DNA from: a bacterium | GTDB lineage: Bacteria > Patescibacteriota > Minisyncoccia > Phycocordibacterales > PALSA-1337 | Direction of reading: 5' to 3' | DNA length: 36,898 bases | Assembly: GCA_025355565.1 (NCBI GenBank) | Contig: JANXZK010000025.1 | Coordinates: forward strand, 1 to 36,898 | In this document: positions 51-36,898 of the stretch, one piece after another | How the letters are laid out: every line of letters starts with the position of its first letter | Numbering within the stretch: position 1 is the first letter of the stretch | The notes under the pieces: generated by a model | What the model saw: only the letters and a program-made list of their open reading frames with translations | Database searches by the model: none | What the model was told of the DNA's origin: nothing | Program-made: the position numbers and the translations under genes

Positions 51-215
51 CGTAACTCCGTCATACCTCTTTGAGTTCCGAGGACTTTTTTGAGAACCAA
101 CATACCTTTGCATTTTCACAAAGGGTGAGTGAATCCTTGAAACGAATCCTTTGTGAAAATGCAGGTATGTTGGGAACAAATCCGCAGGAGCGAAAGGAGG
201 TATGAAGGAGTTACG
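51..215 (+). repeat. Foldback (long inverted-repeat) element, copy 1
   Basis: Outer arms GTAACTCC-g-TCATACCTC (52-69) / GAGGTATGA-a-GGAGTTAC (197-214). Inner arms CCAACATACCT..TTGCATTTTCACAAAGG (97-124) / CCTTTGTGAAAATGC-AGGTATGTTGG (148-173). Apical loop gTGAGTGAATCCTTGAAACGAAT. Internal motifs TTCCGAGGACTTTTTTGAGAAC and TCCGCAGGAGCGAAAGG. Confidence 0.85.
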
Positions 216-248
216 AGATTTCAGATATATTTTGAGAGAGACGTCAAC

Positions 249-1520
249 TTACATCACCCCACCAACTCCGAACCTTCCATTCAGAATACTCCTGGTTTTA
301 ACTCCAACAATGCCCTTTTCATCCGTAATACCATACCTCTTTTGAAACATATCGACAGCAGTTATAGTACATGGACCTAACGATCCTGTGCGTGGACAAT
401 CATTCAAACTCTTTTCACCCGGCGGATAGATGCCGTCGATGACGAGAGCAGTCTGCAATGCATAGATGTCCTGTGACGACGAGGCACTGTTTTTCGTGAT
501 GACTTCTCTCCACTGATGAGGGATGAGTAAAGTATCGTACGAGACGGCGCTGTTAACGACGCTCTTTGAATCAAAGAAATCCTGAAGGCCGAGATAGGTC
601 TGGAAAGCCATATCTTTCAAAGCGGCGCTGCGCAGTAGAGGATTCACGAATTGCGGCTCATATATGTAGCCGTATTCTATGAGCATACTGGCGGCGTCCG
701 AAGTGTTATCGGCACCTATCGCGATCAGATCAGGTTCCTCGACGATACCCGTCGACTCACCAGGAAGATCGCTGACAGGATTGTACTTCGCCAACCTCTT
801 GAATATATTCTCGGCAACAGCTTTCGTCGTCGAGCTATTGTAGTAAAGCTTCTCTGGTACATAGATAGTAAAACCAGAATGGTCACCAGCCGCACGTAAA
901 TGACCCGGGTAATCATTGAAATGTATATGGATGATGATATCGATATCATTCTCATTGGACCATTTGGTAAAACCGAAAAGCCTGTACGCGACGTCTGTTG
1001 GTACCTTGTTATGAATGATGGTTGGAACGGCACGCTTCACGGAACCGATCGACACGAGATACGACATCTCCTCATGATATGCCTTGGTCCAAGTGATGAT
1101 GTCTTCCCATTTATTTTTGAAATATGCCGCAAATGTCGGGCCCCAATCTTGCCCGTCCCTAGTGATATACACCTGATAATGGCTATTAACCGAGAGGAAT
1201 TGCTGCAAATCCTTTCCGAGCTCAACATTCAAGTCGCGCTCCTTCAAGGATCCGTATTCTGCTCCACCGTAGCTAGGCTCGTGCCCAGGAACGATGAGAA
1301 TGCGCACTCTCTTGTCAGATCTCGAATATTGCGAATCTGTGTATTTTGACTGGATATTCGCGATCGTCTTTGGTTTATGTGAGAGGATGACTGCGGCGAT
1401 CTGATTTCCTGCCACCCCTATCGCCGACAGAGCTGTCTGCATTTCTCGTGGATATGTGAGCGCAAACCATGGAATACCGAGTAAGAGAACCGCTATAAAT
1501 ATCCCAAAGTAGTGCCGCAT
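249..1520 (-). CDS. N-acetylmuramoyl-L-alanine amidase (Amidase_3-like) with C-terminal peptidoglycan-binding domain
   Basis: N-terminal TM segment; amidase-like motifs ILIVPGHEPSYGGAEYGSLKERDLN and IIIHIHFND; C-terminal PG_binding_1-like repeat (ALQTALVIDGIYPP...AVDMFQKRYGI). Confidence 0.75.
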   Translation of the reverse strand: MRHYFGIFIAVLLLGIPWFALTYPREMQTALSAIGVAGNQIAAVILSHKPKTIANIQSKYTDSQYSRSDKRVRILIVPGHEPSYGGAEYGSLKERDLNVELGKDLQQFLSVNSHYQVYITRDGQDWGPTFAAYFKNKWEDIITWTKAYHEEMSYLVSIGSVKRAVPTIIHNKVPTDVAYRLFGFTKWSNENDIDIIIHIHFNDYPGHLRAAGDHSGFTIYVPEKLYYNSSTTKAVAENIFKRLAKYNPVSDLPGESTGIVEEPDLIAIGADNTSDAASMLIEYGYIYEPQFVNPLLRSAALKDMAFQTYLGLQDFFDSKSVVNSAVSYDTLLIPHQWREVITKNSASSSQDIYALQTALVIDGIYPPGEKSLNDCPRTGSLGPCTITAVDMFQKRYGITDEKGIVGVKTRSILNGRFGVGGVM

Positions 1521-1592
1521 GATGACATTGTAACGCCAAGCGATGATTTATGAAAGTTATAGTTGTGATTATAGTTGTGATATATTGCAGAT

Positions 1593-2546
1593 ATGCCGGA
1601 ACTACCCGAAGTTGAGACAACAGTAAATGGTCTACAGAAGCATATCGTCGGCCTCATCATCCGTGACGCTTGGTCGAATTACGATAGTTCATATTACCGG
1701 GGCTCTCTAACTATCAAGGATCCTGTGTTTTTCGAGTATTTCAAGGAAAATGTCGTCGGAAAGAAGATTGTTTCCATCGAGAGGCGCGCAAAGAACATCC
1801 TCATAAATATTTCAGGTGGCAATACCATCCTCGTACACATGAAGATGACTGGCCACCTGCTGTATGGACGGTATAGATTCAATGATACGAGCAAATCTCG
1901 AATATCAGGAGTTGGCCGAGTTTCAACGTCCGTCACTGATCCATGGGAGCCCTTGTCCCCCGAGAGTCTCAAAGATCCTTATAATCGTCGTGTGCGTTTC
2001 GTTCTAACATTGAATAGTGGGCGCCAACTCGCCTTGTCCGACACCAGACGTTTTGCCAAGGTCACTCTCGTCGATACAAAAACTATCCATGAATCTGAGC
2101 ATTTGACCGGTATCGGTCCTGAACCACTGGACGAGTCCTTTGATCTCGATGCGTTCAATGAGCGCATGGATCTGCGCCCGAATATTAAAATAAAGTTGGT
2201 ACTATTAGACCAAAATACCATCGCTGGTATAGGTAATATTTATGCGGATGAGTCACTATGGCGCACAGGTATTCATCCACTGAGAATCGTAAAATCTTTG
2301 ACGAAATCGGAACGACGGGAGATTTTCAACGCAATAAAACTGACCTTGTCACGTGGTATTGATTTTGGAGGTGACTCGATGTCTGACTATCGAAACATTC
2401 TCGGTGAAAAAGGTAGATTCCAAGAACAGCACATGGCTTATCAGAGAACTGGAGAAAAATGTAGGAAGACTGGGTGTAAGGGAAGAATAATCAGAATAGT
2501 GGTCGGTGGCAGGGGGACGCATCTATGCAATATGCATCAGAAATAA
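1593..2546 (+). CDS. mutM: Formamidopyrimidine-DNA glycosylase
   Basis: N-terminal MPELPEVETTVNGL; RRAKNILINI; LLDQNTIAGIGNIYADESLW; C-terminal zinc-finger-like segment. Confidence 0.95.
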   Translation: MPELPEVETTVNGLQKHIVGLIIRDAWSNYDSSYYRGSLTIKDPVFFEYFKENVVGKKIVSIERRAKNILINISGGNTILVHMKMTGHLLYGRYRFNDTSKSRISGVGRVSTSVTDPWEPLSPESLKDPYNRRVRFVLTLNSGRQLALSDTRRFAKVTLVDTKTIHESEHLTGIGPEPLDESFDLDAFNERMDLRPNIKIKLVLLDQNTIAGIGNIYADESLWRTGIHPLRIVKSLTKSERREIFNAIKLTLSRGIDFGGDSMSDYRNILGEKGRFQEQHMAYQRTGEKCRKTGCKGRIIRIVVGGRGTHLCNMHQK

Positions 2547-2579
2547 AGAAACTGAATGTACACTTTCCGAATAACAAAA

Positions 2580-3050
2580 TCAACACCCGCAAAACAACAC
2601 CACTCCAGTCGCGACCGAAACATTCAATGATTCCTTCTTCCCTTTCATAGGGATCTCTACGGCCAGATCAGCCACTTTTAGCAAACCTCCAGAAACTCCA
2701 TCGACTTCGTTGCCTAAAATATACAAAGTTTTTAATTTACGTCTAAACTCAGAAATGTTGATCGAGTCTTCCTCTTGTTCGACGGCAACTATTTGAAATC
2801 CCTCTTTTTTCAATTTCTTAATTACCCCGATCGCTTCTTCGTCTCCTATATGTTCCCAAGCAATCATATCTTCGGCTCCTAGAGAAACCTTAGCAAAATC
2901 CTTCCTTCTCCGTCCGAAACGGTCAACAGGAACCGGTGTCGTACCGACGCAATATATCTTCTTTACTCCAGCACATTCCGCAGTACGGAATATGGACCCG
3001 ACGTTGTGAACGCTCCGAATATTGTCTAGTAGTATGCGTGTTTCTATCAT
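2580..3050 (-). CDS. SpoU/TrmH-family RNA 2'-O-methyltransferase
   Basis: LLDNIRSVHNVGSIFRTAECAGV, LYILGNEVDGVS, ESLNVSVATGVVLF: canonical SpoU motifs 1-3 in a 156 aa protein. Confidence 0.9.
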   Translation of the reverse strand: MIETRILLDNIRSVHNVGSIFRTAECAGVKKIYCVGTTPVPVDRFGRRRKDFAKVSLGAEDMIAWEHIGDEEAIGVIKKLKKEGFQIVAVEQEEDSINISEFRRKLKTLYILGNEVDGVSGGLLKVADLAVEIPMKGKKESLNVSVATGVVLFCGC

Positions 3051-3088
3051 GATACAATGAGTACATTATCATATAATCAACCAATACC

Positions 3089-3403
3089 ATGGATACACAT
3101 TCACTAGCATCCGCCGACGCGTTGGGAAAAGTGAGAGTTGAAACTGAGAAAGAAAATATGAGTATCGAAACGAAAACTAAGGATTTAGACAAATTAAAAA
3201 AGGAAATGGAACAAAAACAGAGAGAGTTGGTCAAAGTTCAGCAACAAGTGCAAACGATCGAGAGAGATATCGTAACCATGGAACAAAACTCCAAAACGAT
3301 CGAAAATAGTCTAAATATGCTGAAACAACAAAGAACTCAGAACCAGCAAAAACTCACGCAGATGGCTGCTGAGCTTACAAGATTAAGCAAAGAGAAGAAA
3401 TAA
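3089..3403 (+). CDS. Small coiled-coil protein, function unknown
   Basis: 104 aa ORF, rich in K/E/Q heptad-like repeats. Confidence 0.55.
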   Translation: MDTHSLASADALGKVRVETEKENMSIETKTKDLDKLKKEMEQKQRELVKVQQQVQTIERDIVTMEQNSKTIENSLNMLKQQRTQNQQKLTQMAAELTRLSKEKK

Positions 3404-3415
3404 TGAGCTGTGGTG

Positions 3416-3488
3416 TGCGCCCAGTTGGAGTCGAACCAACGACCCACTCCTTAAAAGGGAGTTGCTCTACCAGCTGAGCTATGGGCGC
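3416..3488 (-). tRNA. tRNA-Lys (anticodon TTT)
   Basis: Minus strand GCGCCCATAGCTCAGCTGGTAGAGCAACTCCCTTTTAAGGAGTGGGTCGTTGGTTCGACTCCAACTGGGCGCA: full cloverleaf, anticodon loop CTTTTAA, T-loop GGTTCGACTCC; no encoded CCA. Confidence 0.97.
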
Positions 3489-3532
3489 GAGTGAGGAAAC
3501 GAAAGAGCTTGCTTAGAAACATTAACATGAAA

Positions 3533-4222
3533 CTACAGCTCTAGCAAAAGTTTCTCTGTACCGAGTTCCAGATCGACGAGTCCTCTATGACCATCATGAT
3601 ATAGAGTTACGAGTTTGGTCAATAGTGAATGTAGCTCGACTTTCGTATATTTAGTAGACCCCCTGTCACCACCAGAGACGATCATGGTTTTAATTTTCCA
3701 AAAAAGCGTTCCCAAAATATTTTCCAAACCAATACCTCGATCAACCGCTTGTCTGTAGATAGTCCAAGAGTTGGCTCTACTGCGGCTACTGACCGCATCA
3801 GCGAGCGCGAACACATCAAATCCTCCTTTCGCCCTCACAGAGCCACCAAAAACCTCCGTACCTGCGGACAAATCAGTAACAACGCTTTTGTCGGCATACT
3901 TTTCAAAAGCTTTCTTGATCTCAACATTCGATTTCCCTTCGAGAATGATAAATATGTTCGGAGATTCTTTCATAGCTGGAATGAATTCGACAACAACCTC
4001 TTTAGCCTCCGCATTTTCCGTGATGCGATCCAAAAAAACGATGTACTTATTCGAGAACAACCCTTGCCCGCCGAGATTTTCCTCGATTGCCGCCACATTC
4101 CAATTATCTGAATTTACGGACACATACGCGGCGTCCGGTTTTTTCAATCTCAGAGAATCGATAAGGTGATGGGCCTTCTCGTGGGATTTCGCCATGTCAT
4201 TTCCATGATATACGTAAAGCAT
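3533..4222 (-). CDS. holA: DNA polymerase III delta subunit-like protein (short)
   Basis: MLYVYHGNDMAKSHEKAHHLID...LFSNKYIVFLDRI...NIFIILEGK; C-terminal LLTKLVTLYHDGHRGLVDLELGTEKLLLEL resembles HolA. Confidence 0.65.
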   Translation of the reverse strand: MLYVYHGNDMAKSHEKAHHLIDSLRLKKPDAAYVSVNSDNWNVAAIEENLGGQGLFSNKYIVFLDRITENAEAKEVVVEFIPAMKESPNIFIILEGKSNVEIKKAFEKYADKSVVTDLSAGTEVFGGSVRAKGGFDVFALADAVSSRSRANSWTIYRQAVDRGIGLENILGTLFWKIKTMIVSGGDRGSTKYTKVELHSLLTKLVTLYHDGHRGLVDLELGTEKLLLEL

Positions 4223-4245
4223 ACTTATACTTTATACCTAATACT

Positions 4246-6756
4246 CTATTTCAACTCTCCCCAATTCTTCCCTACAGCGGACGATGCCGTAAGCACAACC
4301 CCCTTTATATCTTTTGGATCGATAACCGACTCCATGATCTTCTCGATCTCTTTAGCGACCTTTTCAACAACACTTTCTCTGATCTCGTAGACCAGTTCGT
4401 CGTGCACTTGGAGCAGCAGGTAGACATCTTTACCGAGATCATTCTCCTCAACATATTCATCGACCTTGATCATTGCCAGCTTTATCACATCAGCCTCTGT
4501 GCCCTGGATAGGCGCATTGATCGCCATACGCTCGGCGGTGGCACGGATGAATGGCAGTTTAGAATTGATACCTTGGAAATATCTGCGTCTGCCAAAAAAT
4601 GTTTCCGTGTAACCTCTAGCCGCCGTCTGCAGCTTTATATCAGCTAAATACTTCGCCAGTCCAGAAAATGTCTCGAAATATTCATTCAGATATCTTTGCG
4701 CCTCCTCTCTAGTTGAACCGAGATTCTGTTTCAACGCGTTCACCCCCATACCATACATGATGCCAAAATTTATAACCTTGGCCTTGCGACGCATATCAGA
4801 CGTCACACCACTAGCGGGGACTTTGAAAACGTACGAGGCGACAGATGTATGCACATCTTGCCCGTTCTTGAATATCTCGATCAATTTCTCATCATTTGAG
4901 AGAAACGCGGCAATGCGCAATTCCATTTGAGAGTAATCGAAAGCGCCGAGTACAAACCCTTTATCGGCAATAAATGCGTCGCGTATGGCTTTGCCATGTG
5001 CTGTCTTCACTGGAATATTTTGCAGATTTGGATTCTGTGATGCCATGCGCCCAGTCGTCGTACCAGCAGAGATGAAGTCCGCATGCAACCTTCCCCCATC
5101 GTCCAATAGCGGCGGGATAGCGTCGATATATGTGGAGAGGAGTTTTTGCAACTCTCGATACTCAAATATATTTGGGACGATCGGATGCAGATCTCGGATC
5201 TTTTCCAGTTCCGATTCGCGTGTAGATCTAGCTCCGCCAGCAGTTTTCTTCATATTCTTGGCCTCTAAACCAAGCCTATCGAACAAAACTTCTCCCAACT
5301 GTTTCGGTGAATTTATATTGAATTCCATTCCCGCATCTCTCCATATCTTTTCCTCGAGACCAGACAAAGTTGTATGATATTCCTTTGATAGATTCTGTAA
5401 GATAGCTCGGTCGATCTTCACTCCCCTTTCTTTCATCTTATGGGTTATGGGAATGAGTGGGATCTCAATCTCTTCATACAATTTTCGCAATCCTTTTTTG
5501 TCTAATTCTTCATAGATATACTGCTTCGCCTCGTCGAAAGTATCTCTGCCAGAATAGTTCATGATGTCATCTATTTTGGGATTGGTTAGGTCAGAATTCA
5601 CTAACCACAGAGCAACCGCAACTCGTTCCAATTCTTCAGTTGAAACTGCGGCAAAGAGCGCTGATTGATTTGCGATACCCATATCCTCCGCTTGGCCAGT
5701 TCCATCCCCGCCAGAATCTTCACCTCCCTTCCTGCCCACAGATCCTGTGGCATTTTTCGTGATAACAGGTGACGTAGCTCTGCCAGAGACCGCCCTATCC
5801 AGTCTCTGTGTGAGCGACCTGAACTCCAATATATTCCAGAACGCATTAACTCTCTTCACGTCCAACCCTTCCTTGAATGTCTTCAGAGGTAAAGTGAACT
5901 CTATCGGCGCATCCCGGCGAATAGTAGCCAGCATCTTGCTGAATTCAGCCTCTTCTTTGTTGTCTTTCAACAATTGAATGATCCTAGGTGTGATGCCGAC
6001 TTTTTTGAATTTTTCTTCATGTCCAGCATCCAGCTCTTTATACATATTCTCGATCGTGCCAAATGTCGTTATGAGGATTGTGGCCGTTTTTTCCCCAATA
6101 CCCTTCACACCGACGATGTTGTCAGATGGGTCACCACGAAGCCCCTTGTAGTCTGGTATGAGGAGTGGTCCGAAACCGAACCTATCCATGACCGCTTTCT
6201 CGTCATATATGATCGTATCCTTGATCCCTTTCTTCAGGGTATAGACCTTCACATCTTCACCATGAACCAATTGCAATGTATCCATATCGCCAGAGGCGAC
6301 GATCACTTCGATTTCTGAGGCCATCGCTCCCATCCTTGTTCCCCCATTTCCCATCTTCAATTTTCCATCTTCAATCTGTCCGACGATCGTTCCCAATATA
6401 TCGTCCGCCTCGAAGCCTTCCTTTTCATATATAGGGATATTCATAGCACGATACACGTCATACGATCTCTTGATTTGTGTAATGAGCGCATCATCAGTCT
6501 TGGCTCGTCCAGCTTTGTAATCTTTATATGCTTCATGCCTGTACGTTGGTGCGGCCATATCGTAACAAGCGACGACATAATCAGGTTTCAAATCTTCGAT
6601 GATCTTGATGAGCATCGTCGAAAGGCCGAACAACGCTCCCGTCGGCTCGCCGCTCTTCGTTGAGAAATCAGGCAACGCATGATATGCGCGATGGAGTATG
6701 GCGTGAGAATCAAGCAATATCAAGCGCTTCTTGGGTTGTTTTTCTGGTTTTGGCAT
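4246..6756 (-). CDS. polA: DNA polymerase I
   Basis: 5'-nuclease motifs (LLDSHAILHRAYHALP, VASGDMDTLQLV, YKGLRGDPSDNIVGVKGIGEKTA) and polymerase motifs (FDYSQMELRIAAFLS, RRKAKVINFGIMYGM, LLLQVHDELVYE). 836 aa. Confidence 0.97.
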   Translation of the reverse strand: MPKPEKQPKKRLILLDSHAILHRAYHALPDFSTKSGEPTGALFGLSTMLIKIIEDLKPDYVVACYDMAAPTYRHEAYKDYKAGRAKTDDALITQIKRSYDVYRAMNIPIYEKEGFEADDILGTIVGQIEDGKLKMGNGGTRMGAMASEIEVIVASGDMDTLQLVHGEDVKVYTLKKGIKDTIIYDEKAVMDRFGFGPLLIPDYKGLRGDPSDNIVGVKGIGEKTATILITTFGTIENMYKELDAGHEEKFKKVGITPRIIQLLKDNKEEAEFSKMLATIRRDAPIEFTLPLKTFKEGLDVKRVNAFWNILEFRSLTQRLDRAVSGRATSPVITKNATGSVGRKGGEDSGGDGTGQAEDMGIANQSALFAAVSTEELERVAVALWLVNSDLTNPKIDDIMNYSGRDTFDEAKQYIYEELDKKGLRKLYEEIEIPLIPITHKMKERGVKIDRAILQNLSKEYHTTLSGLEEKIWRDAGMEFNINSPKQLGEVLFDRLGLEAKNMKKTAGGARSTRESELEKIRDLHPIVPNIFEYRELQKLLSTYIDAIPPLLDDGGRLHADFISAGTTTGRMASQNPNLQNIPVKTAHGKAIRDAFIADKGFVLGAFDYSQMELRIAAFLSNDEKLIEIFKNGQDVHTSVASYVFKVPASGVTSDMRRKAKVINFGIMYGMGVNALKQNLGSTREEAQRYLNEYFETFSGLAKYLADIKLQTAARGYTETFFGRRRYFQGINSKLPFIRATAERMAINAPIQGTEADVIKLAMIKVDEYVEENDLGKDVYLLLQVHDELVYEIRESVVEKVAKEIEKIMESVIDPKDIKGVVLTASSAVGKNWGELK

Positions 6757-6832
6757 AGAGTTATTGTACCATTCTCAATATTTAAAGTCGTTCAAAATAG
6801 AAATAGTCGCCATAGAATCGATTGATGCAAAT

Positions 6833-7303
6833 TTAGAAAGAGATCTGGTACTCATTATCCACCACCTCGAATCTGATCTCGTGATGATCTGGAACGATCT
6901 TATCCAATGAAACATTTTCTGACCACTCAACCATGATGAGGTTGTGCCGATCAGCGACTAACAGTTCGAAATCGAGAGCATCCGTTTCTTCAGGGTTTTC
7001 CAATCTGTAAGCGTCGATATGAACCAATCGCTTCCAAGGAATATCCTGAGTATCGATATCGTAGACTTTCATTATCACAAATGTTGGACTTGTGATCTCT
7101 CCTTCCACGCCGAGCAGTTTCGCCACCATCTTCACAAAAGCCGTCTTCCCTGCACCTAGATGGCCAGACAGGCCAACAACCGTGGCCTCTATCGATCCTG
7201 CTCGGTTCTGATCACCAGCCACTTCATTCGCAACAACACCTCGCAACCATCGTGATGCGATTTCCTGTGTTTCCTCGAGTGAATGGGAGATATTGGTCTT
7301 CAT
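6833..7303 (-). CDS. tsaE: tRNA threonylcarbamoyladenosine biosynthesis ATPase
   Basis: Walker A GLSGHLGAGKTAFVKMVAKLLGVEGEITSPTFVIMKVY; HIDAYRLENPEE; MVEWSENV. Confidence 0.92.
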   Translation of the reverse strand: MKTNISHSLEETQEIASRWLRGVVANEVAGDQNRAGSIEATVVGLSGHLGAGKTAFVKMVAKLLGVEGEITSPTFVIMKVYDIDTQDIPWKRLVHIDAYRLENPEETDALDFELLVADRHNLIMVEWSENVSLDKIVPDHHEIRFEVVDNEYQISF

Positions 7304-7344
7304 ACATTTACTATACCAATTAATCGGGATATCTGTAACTATCA

Positions 7345-7520
7345 GAATTGTAACCCATCAAACCTGATCCTCGAACGACCGAGCACTCTTTGCGAAGCGA
7401 TATCTCGTGGCATTTTCCAAAGGATGAGTGAATCCTTGGAGCGAATACTTTGAGAAAATGCCGAGAGATTGCTAGCAAATTGCGAGGAAGTGAGAGGGCA
7501 GGTTTGATGGGTTACAATTC
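7345..7520 (+). repeat. Foldback element, copy 2
   Basis: Perfect 22-bp outer arms GAATTGTAACCCATCAAACCTG (7345-7366) / CAGGTTTGATGGGTTACAATTC (7499-7520). Inner arms TCTCGTGGCATTTTC / GAAAATGCCGAGAGA. Loop GATGAGTGAATCCTTGGAGCGAATACTTTGA. Internal motifs GACCGAGCACTCTTTGCGAAG and TTGCGAGGAAGTGAGAGG. Confidence 0.9.
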
Positions 7521-7554
7521 GTATATTCGCATCGATATTGATATACTATTACAT

Positions 7555-9228: not shown

Positions 9229-9328
9229 ATGTTTTGTAATCGGTTATCCACAAAAAATCATTGCTTTTTAAACACCTCAAAGAGTAGTATGGCGACAGGG
9301 GTCAATCAGCAAAATTGAGAATGGTAAT

Positions 9329-9490
9329 ACGAGTTCAAACGCAGGAATCTCTAAGCAAAATCTCGTCGCGTGATGCGATGAGCGAGGTACAGTCCCGAGG
9401 ATAATTACAGTACGCTAGACCGAAGTCTGGCAACCAGAATGTCCTTAGAGCTATACCCAAACCTGGGAAGGCCATTGCTTAGAGACTCGT
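9329..9490. ncRNA. Candidate multibranched structured RNA, family not recognised
   Basis: Closing stems ACGAG (9329-9333) / CTCGT (9486-9490) and TCTCTAAGCAA (9348-9358) / TTGCTTAGAGA (9475-9485), enclosing helices such as TCGTCGC-gtgat-GCGATGA, AGAC-cgaa-GTCT and TGGC/GCCA. The interval has no reported ORF. Strand uncertain. Confidence 0.5.
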
Positions 9491-9592
9491 GTGTTCGAAA
9501 GAAAAACTATCATACGAATCGCCCATATCCAATATCCAATCAATTTAAACCTTTATATTACTTCTCCGCAATCTTAGCATATCGGTAATAAA

Positions 9593-10612: not shown

Positions 10613-10629
10613 TATATCCGATAAATAAC

Positions 10630-10980: not shown

Positions 10981-11068
10981 CCATCGATCAATTTGTATTT
11001 TCATCTTTATTGGTATACATTGGTCAATAATATATCATCAATTACAAACCACTAACAACTAAAATATC

Positions 11069-12083: not shown

Positions 12084-12205
12084 TTACCGTTTACTGGTTA
12101 CTGTATCCTGTTATCCACAACCCCACTTTCTTGCAAAATCAATGTGGTTTTGCTACAAATTACTCACAAAACCATTGACTGATAGATCAATGGCCAATAA
12201 CGAGT

Positions 12206-12531: not shown

Positions 12532-15066
12532 ATGACTAGAAAGAGAAAACTCCATCATGTAAAGAGGATATCTATGATCCTCATATCACTCGTTCTCGTC
12601 CTTATAGGCTCAGGCGCTATTTGGGTTGCGACACTACAGATGCCGGATCTAAATTCATTCCAGGCCAGGAAGATCGCGGAATCAACCAAGATATATGACC
12701 GCACGGGAACAGTCCTTCTATACGACACTGGCAAGAACGCCAAACTTTCATACGTTCCTCTTTCCTCCATATCTTTGTTAGCACAAAAAGCGACGATAGC
12801 TATCGAAGATTCTAATTTTTACAAGAATATCGGCATCGAGCCTTTATCCATCGTGCGGGCAGTATTGGCCGATCTCGCTTCTGGTGGTTATGGCCAAGGG
12901 GCTTCAACGATCACCCAACAAGTAGTGAAGAATTCTCTATTGACGACTGACAAGACCATAACAAGAAAGATCAAGGAGTGGGTTTTGGCTATCAAACTCA
13001 CCAAAGTCATGACCAAGGACCAGATACTGGAGACGTACTTAAACGAATCACCGTATGGTGGAACGTTATATGGAATAGAAGAGGCTAGTAGAGCGTTCTT
13101 CGGTCGTCCCGCCATAGACCTAACATTGGCCCAGGCTGCATATTTGGCCGCAATACCACAGGCACCAACATATTATTCCCCGTATGGCACACACAGAGAC
13201 GCCCTAGATTCTAGACACATCTTGGTTTTACAAAGAATGCGCGATCTAGGTTTGATCACTGTTCCAGAATACAATGCCGCAAGAGCAGAAAAAGTACAAT
13301 TCCTATCAAAGAATGACTCTAGTATCAGAGCCCCACACTTTGTGATGTTCATCAAAGACTATCTGACACAAAAATATGGTGAAGATGAAGTAGACAATGG
13401 CGGATTGAAAATCATCACAACATTGAACTATGACATGCAACAAGAAGCAGAAAGTGTGGTAAAGAAGTTCGGTCCATCCCTATCATCGAGTTTCAATGCC
13501 AGTAACACAGCGATGGTCGCTATCGACCCAAAAACTGGAGATATTCTGATGATGGTAGGTTCGCGTGACTACTTCAACCAGTCTATCGACGGCAACTACA
13601 ACATCGCTCTCGCGGAGAGACAACCAGGCTCAACATTCAAACCGTTCGTCTATTCAACTTTGTTCAAGAAGGGATATACTCCAGAGACGATATTGTTCGA
13701 CGCCCAAACAGAGTTCTCCAACTATTGCACAGTCGAAGGAAAACTGAAGGACACTTCAGCGACACCAAACACTAGTAAGGCCTGCTATTCACCACAAGAA
13801 TACGACAATATATTTGAGGGTCCACTCACTATCCGCCAAGCCTTGGCCCAATCGAGAAACATTCCTGCTGTAAAAGCCCTATACTTGGCCGGTATCCCAG
13901 AATCTATCAAGACTGCTGAGGATATGGGTATAACATCATTAACAGATCCAAATCGCTACGGTCTAACCCTAGTGTTAGGTGGTGGAGAAGTTTCTCTGCT
14001 CGATCTAACCAGCGCATATGGTGTTTTCGCCAATGATGGTATGAGGAATCCGTACCGATCGATACTACAAGTCACAAACAACAAAGGCCTCATATTGGAG
14101 CAGAACGGCACAACGACCACTACTCAAGCGCTAGAACCAGAGATCGCTAGACAGATATCAGATATTTTGTCAGATACCAATGTTCGTATGGCCAGCTTGA
14201 AACCTATAGGAGACAGTGTTGGTAGACCTGTAGCGATAAAAACTGGTACGACCAATGACTATAGAGATGTGTGGGCTGTCGGCTATACACCAAACCTCGT
14301 CGTCGGCGCCTGGGCAGGAAAAAACAACAATACCCCAATGCAACACAATGTGGCTGGACTCATCATCGCCCCTGTATGGGGAGCATTTATGTCTCAGGCG
14401 GTGAAAAATCTCCCTGTTGAGGGATTTGTGCCACCACCACCTCCACTAGTTGACGGTAAACCTGTTTTACGTGGTATATGGCAAGGTGACCAGTCCTACA
14501 CGATAGACAAAGTGTCTGGGAAATTGGCCACGCAATTCACTCCAAAAGAAACTCGCCAAGAGGTCACCTTCACGAATGTTCACACGATACTGCAATGGGT
14601 CAACAAGGATGATCCCCGTGGTCCGACTCCAATAGATCCAACCAAAGACTCACAGTATCCTTATTGGGAGTATGGCGTGAGGAAATGGTTCGTAGAATAT
14701 CAAAAAACACATCCAGCATTGAAAGAAATGACGGGTAGCTTCTCCATACCAACAGATACCGATGATGTGCATACAGCCGATAAAGTGCCAAAGATCATAT
14801 TTATGAGCCCAACAGCCACATCAACCATCAACCCTCAAAACTTACTCCGAATAAATTTGGGTATCTCGAGCGGTTTTATTCCACAAAAAACAGAAGTCTA
14901 TCTGAATGGCAAATATGTATTAACAGCCACGACTAATCCGTTGAACTTCTCCTTCATTCCAGCTGATGTTGGGAAATTGAATGATACTAACAATACTATC
15001 GTTGTGGATGTTTTTGATAGTTTATTCAATAAAGGAGAAGCGGTGCTGAATTTTAAAGTTAATTAA
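12532..15066 (+). CDS. Class A penicillin-binding protein (transglycosylase/transpeptidase, PBP1A-like)
   Basis: Glycosyltransferase-51 motifs IAIEDSNFYKNIGIEPLSIVRA, GQGASTITQQVVKN, KEWVLAIKLTK; transpeptidase motifs RQPGSTFKP, SRN, KTGTTNDYRDVWAVGYTP. Confidence 0.96.
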   Translation: MTRKRKLHHVKRISMILISLVLVLIGSGAIWVATLQMPDLNSFQARKIAESTKIYDRTGTVLLYDTGKNAKLSYVPLSSISLLAQKATIAIEDSNFYKNIGIEPLSIVRAVLADLASGGYGQGASTITQQVVKNSLLTTDKTITRKIKEWVLAIKLTKVMTKDQILETYLNESPYGGTLYGIEEASRAFFGRPAIDLTLAQAAYLAAIPQAPTYYSPYGTHRDALDSRHILVLQRMRDLGLITVPEYNAARAEKVQFLSKNDSSIRAPHFVMFIKDYLTQKYGEDEVDNGGLKIITTLNYDMQQEAESVVKKFGPSLSSSFNASNTAMVAIDPKTGDILMMVGSRDYFNQSIDGNYNIALAERQPGSTFKPFVYSTLFKKGYTPETILFDAQTEFSNYCTVEGKLKDTSATPNTSKACYSPQEYDNIFEGPLTIRQALAQSRNIPAVKALYLAGIPESIKTAEDMGITSLTDPNRYGLTLVLGGGEVSLLDLTSAYGVFANDGMRNPYRSILQVTNNKGLILEQNGTTTTTQALEPEIARQISDILSDTNVRMASLKPIGDSVGRPVAIKTGTTNDYRDVWAVGYTPNLVVGAWAGKNNNTPMQHNVAGLIIAPVWGAFMSQAVKNLPVEGFVPPPPPLVDGKPVLRGIWQGDQSYTIDKVSGKLATQFTPKETRQEVTFTNVHTILQWVNKDDPRGPTPIDPTKDSQYPYWEYGVRKWFVEYQKTHPALKEMTGSFSIPTDTDDVHTADKVPKIIFMSPTATSTINPQNLLRINLGISSGFIPQKTEVYLNGKYVLTATTNPLNFSFIPADVGKLNDTNNTIVVDVFDSLFNKGEAVLNFKVN

Positions 15067-15164
15067 TCTGCCACAAAAACAACTTTCCTACCGTCTCCTG
15101 CGGGCGCTAATCGCTGGCTACCTGTCCTCGGAGCACGTACGGAAAGTTGTTTTTGTGGCAGATT
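15065..15164 (-). repeat. Foldback element, copy 4 (minimal form, motifs on minus strand)
   Basis: Perfect 24-bp arms AATCTGCCACAAAAACAACTTTCC (15065-15088) / GGAAAGTTGTTTTTGTGGCAGATT (15141-15164). Minus-strand interior GTGCTCCGAGGACAGG...GCCCGCAGGAGACGG matches the CCGAGGAC and CCGCAGGAG motifs of copy 1. Confidence 0.85.
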
Positions 15165-15443: not shown

Positions 15444-15444
15444 A

Positions 15445-18195: not shown

Positions 18196-18358
18196 AATAA
18201 CCCCCACCCGTCCCTATGACGCGACCGAGTACTGTTTGAACATCCATGAATCGTTAAAGCTTTTGACATAGGTTGTATGGGAACACATGTCAAAAGATCA
18301 TACGATTCATAGGATGTGAATTACGCAGGGAGCGGAGGAGGGATGGGTGGGGGTTATT
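18196..18358 (+). repeat. Foldback element, copy 3 (dnaA-rpmH intergenic)
   Basis: 20-bp outer arms AATAACCCCCACCCGTCCCT (18196-18215) / AGGGATGGGTGGGGGTTATT (18339-18358), one G-T. Inner arms ACATCC..ATGAATCG..CTTTTGACAT / ATGTCAAAAG..CGATTCAT..GGATGT. Motifs GACCGAGTACTGTTTGAAC and TACGCAGGGAGCGGAGG. Confidence 0.9.
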
Positions 18359-25627: not shown

Positions 25628-25646
25628 AGTAGTGATTACTGTGTTC

Positions 25647-26279: not shown

Positions 26280-26280
26280 A

Positions 26281-26715: not shown

Positions 26716-26734
26716 TGAGTATATTGTAACACAT

Positions 26735-27523: not shown

Positions 27524-27537
27524 TTGGTTTATGATAG

Positions 27538-29370: not shown

Positions 29371-29442
29371 CTAATGTTTACGGTTCGCTGTGTCCTGTTA
29401 CATTTGCGTCATGGTTGGCGTGGTGAAGTCTCGATGGCCGAT

Positions 29443-31164
29443 CTACATTTCTGTCGAGCTCGCGATAGATAGGCCGCACTGGAGTTGGTAACTCATAGCC
29501 GATGAGTTCCAAGAATTGACCACCTGTGGAGCCTTGGTCAGGTTGCTGTTGGCGTTCGATAGGTCCGTCAATGTGACTAGATAATTATTCCCCACGATCT
29601 GGCTATAAATACTGCCGGCACTCTGCACGTCATTTGCTTGCACTGCTGCCTGTAGACTGTTTATCGCCTCCAGTCGCGCATCGGCATCTTCGGCCACTTT
29701 CTGTGACTCATCAACCACTGGAGTCACTGATTCATCCATGAACACTTGGATAGCACCTACTACTTCCTGGCTTCCATTGCCGTTGTTTATGCAATCATTT
29801 TGCATACTAGCGATGAGTTGTTGTTCTGTCTGGAGCAGTGTAAATGTTTGATTGGTGAAATATTTGTAGTCGATCGCTGGTCTCAGGTATTGACTGGTAC
29901 TACTAGCCATCTCTTTCATTGTGGCTTTGGTATTGACCTGGTTCGCCTGTGTCGTTTGGGTGGACAATTGACTCAAGATCGAAGATCTCTGCCCGCTACG
30001 CGTCGTACTAACCGTACTCAATCCTTCCTTGAGTACGGTCGTCATCAATTTTTGGAAGAGGGCACCGACGATCTCGTTTATCGAATGTGCCGCGTTCAAT
30101 CTATCAGCACCTGCTCCGAGTTGCTTGTTTAATGCGCTAACGATCACTGAACCAGGTGTAACCACGGAACACTTCTGTCCATTCATTTCTGCCTCATCAG
30201 GCTCACATTTTGTATATGAGAGGAAACCGTTGCCACGATTCAGATCATTGTTCGTCTGTTCTCTTTTTGCGGCGATAGATTGCTGTAGGTCGCTGCGTGC
30301 CATGAGGTATGAACCGACGGGATTGTTTTGGGGACTAGTCGTCAATGCGAGGAAACCGAGCCAGCCACCTTCTTTGGTAAATGTGTCGCTCACAACCTGT
30401 CCAGCTGTGTTTGCGCTGACGCCATTTACACTCAAACCATTTGCGTTGTTGAGCACACTACCATTCATCAAGCCCCCGAGAGTTGTTCCGTTAGGACTAG
30501 TTCCGACAGAGACACTAGCGTGAGCGTTCGACGCATTGTTTATGATAGATTGGAGTGTACATGTATATCTTTTTTTGTATACAGTATCGGCTTGGTTCAT
30601 TGCCAATGAAAGTTTAATATCGAGCCCGAAGTTGCCGCAAAGCATTTTTAGTGGACCACTGGTGGCTAGGAATTCGTTAGCGATATCATTTGCCTGATTC
30701 GCGAAGAAACTACCAGGATCGGATATGAATGAAGGAGGTCTCTTGCCATCACCATTTATCCAATTTACTATCTCAGTCGTCATGCCCTGCAATATGTCAC
30801 CAGCGAGAGACCAGACTAGACCATCCAGTGTACATGCTTGTGTCTTTTTGAACTCGGTATTTTTGCTAGTCTCCTCGGTATATTTGTGGGTATCCTTATC
30901 AGAAACTGGAACAGCACTTGAGCCACCTATTATACCACCAGTTATACCACCTGTTAAGCCACCTGTTACGCCACCTAACATGCCACCGAGACTACTGGTC
31001 AACCCACCCAATATCCCTCCAAGTTTACATGTCACCCATCCTCCAAGCGCACCCCCAGCGACGCTCCCGAGCTGAGCGTTCGCTAGTGATGGTGAGAATA
31101 GGTTTGAGATCATCACGATCCCGATCACTGCAGGAAATATTTTTGTTAAAATGGATTTGTTCAT
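29443..31164 (-). CDS. Secreted protein with glycine-zipper segment, T4SS-like block
   Basis: Signal peptide; GGILGGLTSSLGGMLGGVTGGLTGGITGGIIGG; paired cysteines (CKL, QACTLD, KMLCGN, YTCTLQ). Confidence 0.5.
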   Translation of the reverse strand: MNKSILTKIFPAVIGIVMISNLFSPSLANAQLGSVAGGALGGWVTCKLGGILGGLTSSLGGMLGGVTGGLTGGITGGIIGGSSAVPVSDKDTHKYTEETSKNTEFKKTQACTLDGLVWSLAGDILQGMTTEIVNWINGDGKRPPSFISDPGSFFANQANDIANEFLATSGPLKMLCGNFGLDIKLSLAMNQADTVYKKRYTCTLQSIINNASNAHASVSVGTSPNGTTLGGLMNGSVLNNANGLSVNGVSANTAGQVVSDTFTKEGGWLGFLALTTSPQNNPVGSYLMARSDLQQSIAAKREQTNNDLNRGNGFLSYTKCEPDEAEMNGQKCSVVTPGSVIVSALNKQLGAGADRLNAAHSINEIVGALFQKLMTTVLKEGLSTVSTTRSGQRSSILSQLSTQTTQANQVNTKATMKEMASSTSQYLRPAIDYKYFTNQTFTLLQTEQQLIASMQNDCINNGNGSQEVVGAIQVFMDESVTPVVDESQKVAEDADARLEAINSLQAAVQANDVQSAGSIYSQIVGNNYLVTLTDLSNANSNLTKAPQVVNSWNSSAMSYQLQCGLSIASSTEM

Positions 31165-31196
31165 GTGACTATTGATGATATTATTAAAATTCTGGG

Positions 31197-32093
31197 CTAG
31201 CTATTGCTGAGCATCACATCGACGAATGTGCCATCGAAGGTAAATGTCCCACCACGAGATTCGATGTACTTTCTCATGTTTTGGAGAGACTCGATGATCT
31301 GCTTGATTCCGTCCAAGTAGTTATTTGCTCCAACCATGGCTGCTAGAGGGTCAGTTTTCGCGGCACGCAATGACTCGGCGACGAACTTCATCGCACTGAA
31401 ACCATTTATGAGTTCTAACATATCTTTGCTAATAACTGACGGCGTTCGTATCTTCCGGAGGCTATCGATGATCGTTGTGTAATTCCTTATGATCGGGTCG
31501 ATCTGTTTCAGTACCTCGGGATCTCTGTTCTCCAGGTATTGTCTAGTGATGAGGGCCTCGTTCTTCGTGATCTTGTATAGAGACAGGCTACCGGCGACTG
31601 CTGACTTGAATACGGTCAAAGTTACGTCATCAGATTTCGGTGTCGCATTGATATCGCTCGGAGTGTACACCGTCGGCGTTTTATAGCTGAGAGCAGAAGA
31701 AATAATCTTTTTCGTCGCATTATCTACTGATGTCTTATCGCCGTCGAGCCCGGCATTTTGTAAAGCCATGTAACTGGTCAATGCCGCTTTCCCCAGATAT
31801 GCCGTCATAGTGTCTTCATTTGACGTATCTGTAGATGGTGGAGATTTTGTAACAGCCGCGCCAGCTGTCGTCACGTCACCGGTTATGAAAGATTTTTTCC
31901 AATCAATGCTCGATGAAGCTGTGTTGTCGGCGGAGCTATCATCGGAGTTGTTGGCTGCGGATATCGCCCCGAGAGTTGTGTCATTTGTCGTCGAACCCGC
32001 CCCTTGTCTAGTCGTGAATAATGCCACTGCCACTGCGGCGATGCAGATAACTGAAACGAACACGGTTTGTGAACGAGGATGGGCAAAAGCCAT
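31197..32093 (-). CDS. Membrane-anchored extracytoplasmic protein, function unknown
   Basis: N-terminal TM (TVFVSVICIAAVAVALFTT), 298 aa. Confidence 0.45.
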   Translation of the reverse strand: MAFAHPRSQTVFVSVICIAAVAVALFTTRQGAGSTTNDTTLGAISAANNSDDSSADNTASSSIDWKKSFITGDVTTAGAAVTKSPPSTDTSNEDTMTAYLGKAALTSYMALQNAGLDGDKTSVDNATKKIISSALSYKTPTVYTPSDINATPKSDDVTLTVFKSAVAGSLSLYKITKNEALITRQYLENRDPEVLKQIDPIIRNYTTIIDSLRKIRTPSVISKDMLELINGFSAMKFVAESLRAAKTDPLAAMVGANNYLDGIKQIIESLQNMRKYIESRGGTFTFDGTFVDVMLSNS

Positions 32094-32100
32094 GGGCTAA

Positions 32101-32631
32101 TTATAGCAAGGAATCCCTAGATTTCTCATTCTTTTTGGGGATAACGAGAAGATCATTTTTCTGTACTTGAGTGATGACGTGTGACATCTCACTGGCCCCA
32201 GGCAAAGTCTTTAACATGGCCATGAGATTGTCTGCATCGAAGTTGTATGAAGTGCCTGTTAGTAGAAATATTCCCTCGGGCGTGTCGCCACTGCTTCCGG
32301 CACAATCATCGGCAATATCTAAACAGATGGCGAAAGGAACCAGAGTTGTCAGGAAGTAGCCACTAGAGGTAAAAACGTTGTAGTTTGCATAAAGTTGGGT
32401 GATTCCGGCTTGGTACATATAAACATGGTCCTGGTTGTCGACGTAGCTTTTGACTTTGATAGTCAGTCCACCAGTACAAGAACATGTTGCGTCTATTCCC
32501 TTTAGATCTCCACCATCGAATGAAGCTCCATATGCGAACGTGTGTAGTGGTAAAGCGGTGAGTGTGACCATTGAAACAACTGCCGCCAGTCCGATCAGAT
32601 GTTTATTTATGTTGTTTTGAATAGTTTGCAT
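32101..32631 (-). CDS. Small secreted protein, function unknown
   Basis: 176 aa with N-terminal hydrophobic segment; ATCSCTGGLTIKVKSY motif. Confidence 0.45.
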   Translation of the reverse strand: MQTIQNNINKHLIGLAAVVSMVTLTALPLHTFAYGASFDGGDLKGIDATCSCTGGLTIKVKSYVDNQDHVYMYQAGITQLYANYNVFTSSGYFLTTLVPFAICLDIADDCAGSSGDTPEGIFLLTGTSYNFDADNLMAMLKTLPGASEMSHVITQVQKNDLLVIPKKNEKSRDSLL

Positions 32632-32642
32632 AGTTCGGTTTA

Positions 32643-33830
32643 TTATTTGGTAATAAAGAAGTAGCCGTAGTTGCTACTTAGGCCAGAGGAATTTTTCACG
32701 CCAAATGAGACGGTGAACTGATTTACGGATGTATTACTGAAGAACATCGACGCGTTTGGCAGATCATTAACGTTAAAAGTTAAGGTTTTGCCGTCTGAAG
32801 AATTCAGGTTTCTGAGGGTGCCGAGTGTCGAATGGATCGTGTTGTTGGAGGTGTCGAGCCTGGTTGCGGTTACCTTGATGACTGCGTTGCGGCTGGCGCT
32901 ATTTGGCGTTACGGAAAGTATTTCCGGCCTGGAATCGGTTGTGGCGCCTATGGTGAACTTGAATGGAGAAGAGGTTTTGGATGAACCACGGCTATTCGTG
33001 ACCCAGAGGTCATAAGTCCCATATGAGATTTCTGGTACAACCAGACGAATGTCGGAACTCGAGATGGAGACGGTCGGAGCGGTCGTTGCCCCTATATGGA
33101 CGATGCTATCAGGATCGAATCCGTACCCCGTGATCGATAGTGTGTCCCCTGGCTTGATCTGCAAGTTTGAAACCCCAAATATTAGGAGATCTCTAGGCGA
33201 AACGGCCATAAAAGCGTTGCGTGCTGAGATGGTGCCGAGAGAGGTTGGTGATGAAATTGGGGCGTATGGTCTTACTGATGGTCTCGTTGCGGTTGTGGTG
33301 GAGGTTGTTGCTGGTTGGTTGTTTCTCGGAACAGTCGTTTGTGGATTCGTTGCTGGATTTGTAGGACTAGTTGACGTCGAAGTGATTGCCGGAACAATCC
33401 GTGGAACGAGATTTGGACTGGTCGACACGGAGACGCCCGGAGTCGTTGATTTTTGAATCGAATTTAATTTAGCTATCGTCAATGGGCCAACAAACCCCGT
33501 GCCTCTAGCCAAACTGGCCGGAACTAGCACGTCTTTGTAGTATTTTTCTTGGAACTTGATGACAGCGACTGCAGTTCTATTGCCAAAATATGTCGTTTCA
33601 TTCCCCGGAGAGCCTACTCCAAAGGTTGCGATCTTCGTGGATGGATCAGAATTTAGTAATTTCTGCAATTGCGAGACATCTAGGCCAGACATTCCTCGTG
33701 ACAGATTTCTGTAAAAAGTATATGACGCCGCCGCATGAGATATTTGCCATTGCGTCAGTAAGAAACCACAAATAATCAGGGTTATTATAGTGACAAAATA
33801 TTGTCTGCTAGATTTAGCATTCGATCTCAC
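32643..33830 (-). CDS. Peptidoglycan-binding + IPT/TIG-domain secreted protein
   Basis: LSRGMSGLDVSQLQKLLNSD...TAVAVIKFQEKY (PG_binding_1-like); LQIKPGDTLSITGYGFDPDSIVHIG...YDLWVTNSRGSSKTSSPFKFTI (IPT/TIG-like). Confidence 0.65.
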   Translation of the reverse strand: MRSNAKSSRQYFVTIITLIICGFLLTQWQISHAAASYTFYRNLSRGMSGLDVSQLQKLLNSDPSTKIATFGVGSPGNETTYFGNRTAVAVIKFQEKYYKDVLVPASLARGTGFVGPLTIAKLNSIQKSTTPGVSVSTSPNLVPRIVPAITSTSTSPTNPATNPQTTVPRNNQPATTSTTTATRPSVRPYAPISSPTSLGTISARNAFMAVSPRDLLIFGVSNLQIKPGDTLSITGYGFDPDSIVHIGATTAPTVSISSSDIRLVVPEISYGTYDLWVTNSRGSSKTSSPFKFTIGATTDSRPEILSVTPNSASRNAVIKVTATRLDTSNNTIHSTLGTLRNLNSSDGKTLTFNVNDLPNASMFFSNTSVNQFTVSFGVKNSSGLSSNYGYFFITK

Positions 33831-34704
33831 CTACAGATTGTATCATGAATCTTGAAGCCAGCGATATCCACTGATCTACTGACAGATCTTCTGCTCGAGT
33901 TTTCGGGTCAAAACCTAGATCAACCCAGATCGTGGCGAGTTTTTGTTGGTCGACATGAACACTTTTTTTTGGATCCTTAGTGATACTGACAGATTCCAGG
34001 TTTCTGATCAGGAACTTTCTCTTGTGTGCAAAACCAGCATGTACGATGTCAAAAAAGTCTGATATTTCAACGTTATTTGCGATAAATTTTTTGTTAGATA
34101 TGTCGGTGATGGATAATATGGCTGAGTCAACAGTTGGTGCCGGCGTGAATGCTCCGCGTGGAACCTTCGCTATGAGTTTTGGAGTACCGAAGGCTTTTAC
34201 TGAAATCGATAGAATACTTTCTTTGCCATCATTGTTTCCCTTACTATTCGCAATCGATGTGCCCGAGATGATCCTTTCTGCAACTTCTCTTTGTACCAAC
34301 AAAACCATACGGTTAGGTCTCGGTTCCTGCTCCAAGAATTTCTCCAAAATAGCACCAGTGATGTAATACGGAATATTTGCGACGATGGAGTATCCTCCAT
34401 CGAGAATCGTAAATCGTTCATTGAACGTTTCATCTAGCACATCCCCTTCTATCACATTCAATTGGCCACTATGACTGGCGACTTCGAATTTTGTCTGGAG
34501 CAACCCTATTGCTCTGACATCTTTTTCAATGGCGATGACTTTTACGCCAGTCTCAAGTAAAGCCTCTGTGAGGACCCCAGTTCCTGGACCTATTTCGAGT
34601 ACCATCTCCCCTTTTTGGAGCGAGGCAGTTTCGATGATCTGGTCCAAAACATGTTTTGAGTTCAAGAAATGCTGGCCTAGTGATTTTTTTGCGTATAGCT
34701 CCAT
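33814..34704 (-). CDS. rsmA: 16S rRNA dimethyladenosine transferase RsmA (KsgA)
   Basis: KKSLGQHFLNSKHVLDQIIETASLQKGEMVLEIGPGTGVLTEALL; IVANIPYYITGAILEKFL; FAHKRKFLIRNL. Confidence 0.95.
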   Translation of the reverse strand: MELYAKKSLGQHFLNSKHVLDQIIETASLQKGEMVLEIGPGTGVLTEALLETGVKVIAIEKDVRAIGLLQTKFEVASHSGQLNVIEGDVLDETFNERFTILDGGYSIVANIPYYITGAILEKFLEQEPRPNRMVLLVQREVAERIISGTSIANSKGNNDGKESILSISVKAFGTPKLIAKVPRGAFTPAPTVDSAILSITDISNKKFIANNVEISDFFDIVHAGFAHKRKFLIRNLESVSITKDPKKSVHVDQQKLATIWVDLGFDPKTRAEDLSVDQWISLASRFMIQSVGEIEC

Positions 34705-34725
34705 GGTTGTTGATGTTACAGTTAA

Positions 34726-36693
34726 TCAAAAATCGATAAACAACGCCTTAGCACCGCTCGGTTTTGTCGGTTTATAGTCCTCGATCAATCTGGTTTCGAT
34801 ATCGGTGATAAACTCGGACGGGTTACTGATCCGTTGTGCGCCGAAGATCGTTCGGAGGATCGTATAGGATAGGTAGACTTTCTTTCTCGCTCGAGTCAAG
34901 GCCACATAGAACAGCCGTCTCTCCTCTTCCTCTTCTGATTTGCTGATGTCGCCGTCATCCATGTGTTTGAATGGGAACAGATCCTGTTCCATGCCGGCAA
35001 TGAAGACATAGTCGAATTCTAGTCCTTTGGCGGCGTGGACGGTCATCAGTTTGACCGCATCCTCATCTTTCACGAGGTCATCTTGGTCGCTAGCTAGGGC
35101 AGCGTTAGAGAGTAATGACTCTATTCCCTCTTCGGGCGTCAGGTGATCGTATTGCGTCGCGACGGACACGAGCTCACGTATGTTGAGGAGTCTTTCCTCG
35201 TCTTCGGGGTCACCAGTCCTCAATGAATGTTCAATGCCGGACTCTCGGATGACGAACTTCACTGATTCTCCAGGTTTCTTTGTTGTGATCTCGGCCTTGA
35301 TATCATCCAGAAGCTTGTAGAAGTTATCTAATTTGATCTTCATTCCCACAGGCAAGAGATGAGCAGCGTCGGACATGATCTTCGCAATCGTCGCCTTACC
35401 TATACCCCTTGTCGGCACATTGATCACTCGGCCGATATCTGACCAGGAGTCTCTATTCAATGAGGCACGTATATATGAAAGGACGTCTTTGATCTCTTTT
35501 CTCTCGAAGAAACGCACCCCGACGAGCTGGTAAGGGATATTTTTCTTTAGGAATGATTCTTCCAGGACGCGCGATTGGAAATTCGTTCGATACAATACGG
35601 CTATGTTGCGGGGCGAAACGCCTGATGAACCTCCTTGGGATCCACCAGCGATCAGACTCTTTGATATGTCTGCTATCGTCCTCGCCTCGTCTATCTCGGT
35701 GTATGAGACTATGAGAGAGATCTTCTCACCGGTGTCGTTGTCTGTATACAGGGTCTTCTTTTTTCGGAGAGTGTTCTTTTCTATGACATTGTTTGCCGCT
35801 TCAAGGATGTTTTTGGTCGAACGGTAGTTCTTCTCTAGTGTGATGACTGTTGCCTCAGTATAATCCTTCTCAAAGTTTAGGATATTCTCTATCGTCGCAC
35901 CTCTCCAGCTATAGATATTCTGGTCCGCATCTCCAACGACGCAGATATTCCTATGACTTTCGGCCAGAAGTTCGACGATCATGTACTGTATCTTGTTGGT
36001 GTCCTGATATTCGTCGACATGAACATATTTCCATAAGTCCGCATAGTGTTTCTTGACTTGTGGGTACTTGCTGAGTAACAGCGCTGTTTTTGCCAAGAGG
36101 TCGTCGAAGTCGAGAGCCTTTTCTTTCGCCATGATCGCTTCATATTTCTCCCAGATCTGCGCGACAACTTCTTCGGTATAACCTTTTGCGTGATCGAGAT
36201 ACGCGAGCCTGTCTATCGCATCACCTTTCGCTCTGGAGATCATATTGAGCATCACTCCGGCATTGAACTTTTTTGGGTCTACACTGCACTCAGTCATCGC
36301 TTCCTTGATCGCTCGGCGCGAATCTGACCGATCGAATATGGTGAAATGCCTAGTTAGACCCAGTAGTGCCGCATTTTCGCGAATTATATGCACACCCAAC
36401 GCATGAAAAGTGCTTACGAAAGGCTTCTCTGTACCGGAATATGAGTTTGAAATTGGCAGATTTAGCCCTTTGTCCTCCTTGATGAGAGTCAGTACCCTCT
36501 CACGCATCTCTTTGGCGGCCTTATTGGTAAAAGTTATAGCTAAAATAGAATGAGGAGTTGCACCGCTCTTTATGAGGTGCAGTATCCTATGGGTGATGAC
36601 ACGTGTCTTCCCAGAGCCGGCGCCGGCGATGATGAGGACTGGTCCATCCGTAGTCTCCACTGCTCTCTGTTGGGCGTCGTTTAGTGATGTCAT
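34726..36693 (-). CDS. UvrD/PcrA-family DNA helicase
   Basis: LNDAQQRAVETTDGPVLIIAGAGSGKTRVITHRI, VDEYQDTNKIQY, VVGDADQNIYSWRGA, LMTVHAAKGLEFDYVFIAGMEQDLFP, RRLFYVALTRAR. Confidence 0.96.
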   Translation of the reverse strand: MTSLNDAQQRAVETTDGPVLIIAGAGSGKTRVITHRILHLIKSGATPHSILAITFTNKAAKEMRERVLTLIKEDKGLNLPISNSYSGTEKPFVSTFHALGVHIIRENAALLGLTRHFTIFDRSDSRRAIKEAMTECSVDPKKFNAGVMLNMISRAKGDAIDRLAYLDHAKGYTEEVVAQIWEKYEAIMAKEKALDFDDLLAKTALLLSKYPQVKKHYADLWKYVHVDEYQDTNKIQYMIVELLAESHRNICVVGDADQNIYSWRGATIENILNFEKDYTEATVITLEKNYRSTKNILEAANNVIEKNTLRKKKTLYTDNDTGEKISLIVSYTEIDEARTIADISKSLIAGGSQGGSSGVSPRNIAVLYRTNFQSRVLEESFLKKNIPYQLVGVRFFERKEIKDVLSYIRASLNRDSWSDIGRVINVPTRGIGKATIAKIMSDAAHLLPVGMKIKLDNFYKLLDDIKAEITTKKPGESVKFVIRESGIEHSLRTGDPEDEERLLNIRELVSVATQYDHLTPEEGIESLLSNAALASDQDDLVKDEDAVKLMTVHAAKGLEFDYVFIAGMEQDLFPFKHMDDGDISKSEEEEERRLFYVALTRARKKVYLSYTILRTIFGAQRISNPSEFITDIETRLIEDYKPTKPSGAKALFIDF

Positions 36694-36736
36694 GAGGACA
36701 GTTTACAGTGCAATGTGTAAAGTTCAAAGCTTTTTA

Positions 36737-36898
36737 CCCCCCCCACACACACCTGCCCCCCTCACTCCCTCGCAATCTGCTAGCAATCTCTCGGCATTTT
36801 CTCAAAGTATTCGCTCCTCTCCTTCGCCACTGTACTCATCATTACTGTGGAATACTGAGAAAAGCTACGGAGGAGCAGGCAAGGATTCACTCATCATG
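36737..36898 (-). repeat. Foldback element, copy 5 (truncated by window end)
   Basis: Minus strand GATGAGTGAATCCTTG-[~63 bp]-GGAGCGAATACTTTGAGAAAATGCCGAGAGATTGCTAGCAGATTGCGAGGGAGTGAGGGGGGCAGG; the right half is near-identical to copy 2 (7437-7503). Confidence 0.85.

Follow-up and report, generated by a model that had tools for sequence, protein, structure and literature searches.

The window analysed here, 36,898 nucleotides long, spans contig C25 in full; its source is a bacterial genome of 832 kb in 27 contigs, whose small size suggests Patescibacteria. It carries five intergenic foldback elements belonging to a dispersed family, in which conserved cores are enclosed by near-perfect arms that differ between copies over most of their length. 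The elements are non-coding and probably selfish, and the identity of their two arms through DNA copying is well supported by the pattern of paired substitutions. We consider it rather likely that template switching keeps the arms identical and that tips are exchanged between hairpins; the agent, template switching, and the selfishness of the elements are what we infer from these patterns.

Foldback elements in the window and their relatives

All five elements proposed by the sequence-only reading were found where it had placed them, folding as described, and their outer arms are near-perfect as claimed (22/22 positions paired in E2, 24/24 in E3, 19/20 in E4 and one bulge in E1). Their features are as follows.

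E1, 51-215, forward strand: outer arms about 51-72 and 193-215, one bulge
E1 motifs, forward strand: left CCGAGGAC at 78, right CGCAGGAG at 183
E1 nested foldback in the loop, about 91-176, forward strand
E2, 7345-7520, forward strand: 22-bp perfect outer arms, 7345-7366 and 7499-7520
E2 motifs, forward strand: CCGAGCAC at 7379, GCGAGGAAG at 7482
E2 nested inner foldback, about 7393-7474, forward strand
E3 (core A), 15065-15164, reverse strand: 24-bp perfect arms, core 15089-15140
E4, 18196-18358, forward strand: arms of 20 bp, 1 mismatch; flanked by dnaA and rpmH, which are divergent
E4 motifs, forward strand: CCGAGTAC at 18225, CGCAGGG at 18325
E4 inner hairpin, 18246-18310, forward strand
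E5, 36720-36898, reverse strand: right motif at 36773, third nested foldback as at C24:51167

E5 is incomplete because the contig ends at 36898. Together with E1 at 51, it places an element at or near both ends of the contig, as is expected if repeats break the assembly. The left and right motifs are opposed in the fold, as had been predicted, in the form CC-GA-GNA against TNC-G(C)A-GG with recurring tandem G.A mismatches. The arms had also been called unrelated between copies. This holds for their middles but not for their ends, since E1, E2 and most relatives in the genome have a GTAAC-like start and a CCTG or CCTC end in common.

In E1, E2 and E5, a second foldback sits inside the loop of the first, and both E5 and C24:51167 hold a third level. 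Sister copies without the nested insert were found on contig C3 (C3:40246 for E1, C3:41492 for E2), where the outer elements have short loops (TTTTTTGTAAACAAAT and CTCTTTGCTTTGCAAATT). The inner foldbacks of E1 and E2 have a core of their own in common and different outer stems, indicating that the family pattern repeats one level down. The sister copy of E3, at C14:34112-34191, likewise has the core and the inner 8 bp of the arm (AACTTTCC) in common with E3 and a different outer arm.

The family proved to be dispersed and structured, as the sequence-only reading had proposed, with 12 copies bearing both motifs in the 399 kb of the source genome (G000 in the cross-genome counts) that were read. 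The covariance model R1 recovers only copies with a short interior; those with nested inserts came from motif and foldback scans. A scan for foldbacks with arms of at least 14 bp and spacers of at least 20 nt gave 72 in G020 (797 kb), 17 in G014 (418 kb) and 19 in the source genome (399 kb), against 1, 2 and 0, respectively, in shuffled controls. Arms of at least 25 bp were present in 56 of the 72 G020 foldbacks and were perfect in 37 of these 56, a perfection that is partly selected because the scan is blind to arms without a 12-nt perfect seed; counting by core avoids this bias. There were 15 foldbacks in 97 kb of G008, and 3-4 per 100 kb in G003, G025 and G029. Related foldback families are thus present across the genus. 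Core A occurred in 14 copies in 8 of the 34 genus genomes, with 0 copies of the reversed pattern, and in none of the 388 genomes searched elsewhere in the order. An 18-mer scan of the genome contigs gave three unrelated matches, about the chance expectation. Three patterns searched against viral contigs found no match, and 50 kb of E. coli K-12 contained no copies. At gathering score, the only Rfam matches in the window and five related loci were tRNAs, and E2 searched at a relaxed threshold gave only a chance-level match; thus, the elements match no RNA family there.

Two further foldbacks were observed. At locus L171, a 79-bp foldback is found at 3986-4064 and again, 926 bp further on, at 4912-4990, apparently as a duplication. 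In the window, a long foldback at 9334-9499 is not a member of the E1-E5 family; it occurs once each in the sequence of G000, G003, G020 and G014, with 80-87% identity, has no Rfam match above gathering score even with a relaxed threshold, and looks like a conserved structured RNA.

Pairing and two-sided change in the arms

In G020, the cores of families C, D and A are 87%, 77% and 95% identical between copies, respectively, and the copies have a short inner stem in common, with differing outer stems. Family C was collected by its core alone, giving 22 copies whose arms were not used in the selection. All 22 pair at least 21 of 24 arm positions, whereas the best random place pairs 14 of 24, and 522 of the 528 arm cells (98.9%) are Watson-Crick pairs, with 5 of G-U type and 1 other. 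In family D, 14 of 17 core matches pair at least 18 of 24 arm positions. Between-copy arm identity falls from 0.93 beside the core to 0.33 at 37-42 nt, with pairing at 97-100% throughout; an intermediate stretch at 7-12 nt, with an identity of 0.58, is flanked by two conserved stretches. The variable arms had no other match in the three genomes searched, and a CRISPR-like origin of the arms was rejected.

The alignment of family C shows how these arms diverge. Changes on both sides were found in 15 of 25 pairs and one-sided change alone in 0 of 25; at the level of cells, there were 66 two-sided changes, 2 G-U (one-sided) and 4 unpaired. The covariation score was 0.351, compared with 0.118 in shuffled alignments and reached in 0 of 500 shuffles, so covariation is strongly supported. 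RNA selection commonly proceeds through G-U intermediates, and DNA copying does not. With 66 two-sided changes against 2 G-U, DNA copying therefore accounts for the pairing better than RNA selection. Of the two means of arm maintenance that had been suggested, template switching agrees with arm differences that are paired Watson-Crick changes, and plain compensatory change under RNA selection is unsupported because the G-U intermediates are nearly absent. This two-sided change in family C is the strongest evidence in the analysis.

Orthologous sites and the origin of the arms

We compared G020 with G014, which is about 80% identical to it and in which 40 of the 72 G020 foldbacks could be placed; the closest genome pair compared was 87% identical. 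At one site (C3:20840 in G020, C5:6199 in G014), one outer stem is kept around different cores, with a 2-bp indel on both arms. At another (C2:64861 and C11:19249), an identical outer stem encloses cores C and D. The pyrG gene of G014 contains a native quasi-palindrome of 11 bp, formed by GTAAGGTGAA and TTCACCTTAC with about 20 nt between them; in G020, its loop is swapped in frame for a core, the stem being longer and perfect. At a glycosyltransferase locus, core A lies between the arms in opposite orientations in G023 and G017, with a sequence identity of 98% against 69% for the rest of the region; two separate insertions, instead of an inversion, could also have produced this arrangement. 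Two G020 sites have orthologs in G014 that retain only one half of the element. An assembly artefact is unlikely, since separate assemblies have elements at orthologous positions. The suggested mobility of the elements is supported indirectly by the same core at non-orthologous places, by relatives without the insert and by nested insertions.

Support for tip exchange comes from two orthologous sites, from the nesting and from one inverted core. In the mechanism that we propose, the spreading unit would be a short core together with its short inner stem. At replication, the nascent strand would fold back or switch template within a hairpin, and one arm would thus serve as the template for rewriting the other. 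Where the switch is to a hairpin elsewhere, tips would be exchanged, and a core could thereby enter the loop of a hairpin or quasi-palindrome that already exists. Such exchange would yield outer stems that are unrelated, cores that are shared or inverted, and nests. The copies would persist between genes and, if in frame, within protein linkers. Three observations fit this account less well. Replication slips alone leave the same core at dozens of distant sites unaccounted for. Arm correction would be expected to remove the tandem G.A internal loops of the window family, yet many copies retain them, a hint that the core is under selection or recognised. Finally, at one site (C2:340366 in G020, C20:10423 in G014), members of the same core family occupy the same position but their arms are entirely different, which calls for arm replacement or two insertions.

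Alternatively, the arms might derive from the target: the core would join the nascent strand, and snap-back would copy the flank, leaving a 20-40-bp inverted target duplication round the core. The elements would then form a mobile class that brings only a core and builds its stem from adjacent host sequence, with a private perfect arm for each insertion. We regard both statements as tentative possibilities. Within a single genome, near-identical cores do have perfect arms that are unrelated and without a match elsewhere in it, and in arm tests against the orthologous sites of G014, 9 of 44 gave p ≤ 0.01, with about 0.4 expected (left arms of C1:4218 and C1:338591; right arms of C1:78547, C1:102971 and C2:355922; both arms of C2:92155; and two more that are decayed elements). 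At C1:24037, the reversed right arm encodes, in our reading, RIFAGHNSS, resembling the MILPGHISG start of a gene that is intact in G014. However, some of these matches resemble halves left by decay of the same element, the inner-arm variation that lies between conserved stretches does not come from the target, and the tests were not significant at a core A copy (C2:297117, p = 0.13), recG (p = 0.07) or dnaG (p > 0.15). Because the nine tests include decayed elements and these three cases were not significant, target-derived arms are to be read as possible only.

Movement in trans of MITE-like elements by a transposase, such as a Y1 RAYT-like enzyme or one of the IS110 family, or by reverse transcriptase appears improbable. 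The genus does hold such genes (Y1_Tnp in 21 of 34 genomes, reverse transcriptase in 22 and the IS110 family in 7), but none of these three enzyme families tracks the elements: the 100% complete G008 has no Y1 or IS110 match, yet 15 foldbacks in 97 kb, and G020 has no reverse transcriptase or IS110 match, yet many foldbacks. The RAYT-like Y1 transposase gene of G020 (C2, about 109212-109740) is flanked by short palindromes of its own, ACAAGGGTAGRCCTTGT, which are unrelated to the foldback cores and occur in 17 copies in G020, 2 in G014 and 0 in G000; the gene and its palindromes apparently form a REP/RAYT pair. MITE ends are common to copies, whereas the outer-arm identity here is about that of chance and the window family shares only the GTAAC-like end. 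No target-site direct duplication was seen by eye at the element ends.

The least probable reading, and a very doubtful one, is a structured RNA or terminator-like regulatory element with arms kept by compensatory mutation under selection: the strong covariation, the conserved G.A internal loops and the mostly intergenic location favour it, but G-U pairs are almost absent, each copy has unique outer arms, Rfam gives no match, and E2 and E4 each lie between divergent genes. Terminators are ruled out by the gene context, with no enrichment between convergent genes (6 convergent, 17 divergent and 40 tandem in G020; background 71, 92 and 226).

Insertions in genes, known systems and implications

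Long reading frames are otherwise avoided (6 of the 72 G020 elements lie inside one, compared with 66% of random intervals), but in-frame copies occur in unrelated protein genes. In dnaE, core A is present in G029, a second core, B, in G000, G002 and G010, and a similar one in G025; most genus members lack the dnaE insert, and in them VFG is joined to DRL directly or nearly so. Copies are also in frame in recG and dnaG of G014, in recG of G010, with a related one in G028, and in pyrG of G020. Across the genus (loci L039-L098), the dnaE and recG linkers carry in-frame inserts of different families in several species and are hot spots of protein lengthening. The dnaE linker of G016 (L058) has a different hairpin with CCCCCTTTGAAAAAGGGGG.

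Several known systems resemble the present elements in part. In Rickettsia palindromic elements, the arms are part of the repeat consensus, and REP/BIME sequences are short palindromes with a GTAG motif, linked to a RAYT gene. Here, the elements are palindromic and intergenic and RAYT-like genes are present, but the REP-like repeats of the G020 RAYT-like gene are a separate set, and foldbacks occur without Y1 genes, as in G008. The Rickettsia elements are also palindromic repeats of about 150 bp in several families, in frame in unrelated genes (PMC10969869); the present ones are set apart, by description and not by sequence, in that they occur in different bacteria and their outer arms differ in each copy. 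Nested palindromic repeats of Volvox organelles are hairpins within hairpins and probably selfish, but have short loops of 3-5 nt (PMC2670323), in contrast to the long conserved unpaired cores and unique arms seen here. Hairpin elements of sponge mitochondria have conserved stems and variable loops (PMC2800124), the converse of conserved cores and unique arms.

Other parallels concern the process. Published work shows that template switching can create and perfect hairpins (PMC8794818), homogenise arms and invert spacers (PMC8604942). In quasipalindrome correction (PMC8794818, PMC8604942, PMC7202029), the arms are likewise perfected by copying, spacers invert and changes are multi-base and paired. 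A possible inversion of the spacer between arms was seen here at one syntenic site, the G023/G017 locus. The changes of quasipalindrome correction are local, however, whereas the present cores are conserved and dispersed through the genome and across species. A shared core with private perfect arms was not found described in a partial search of the literature, which is weak evidence of absence.

Two-sided substitutions are usually taken as proof of a selected RNA structure. Dozens of dispersed hairpins with extreme two-sided change and almost no G-U offer a natural case in which to test template switching, and they call for caution in the covariation-based discovery of RNA families. In these bacteria, the elements lengthen essential proteins in frame, and they may break assemblies at contig ends.
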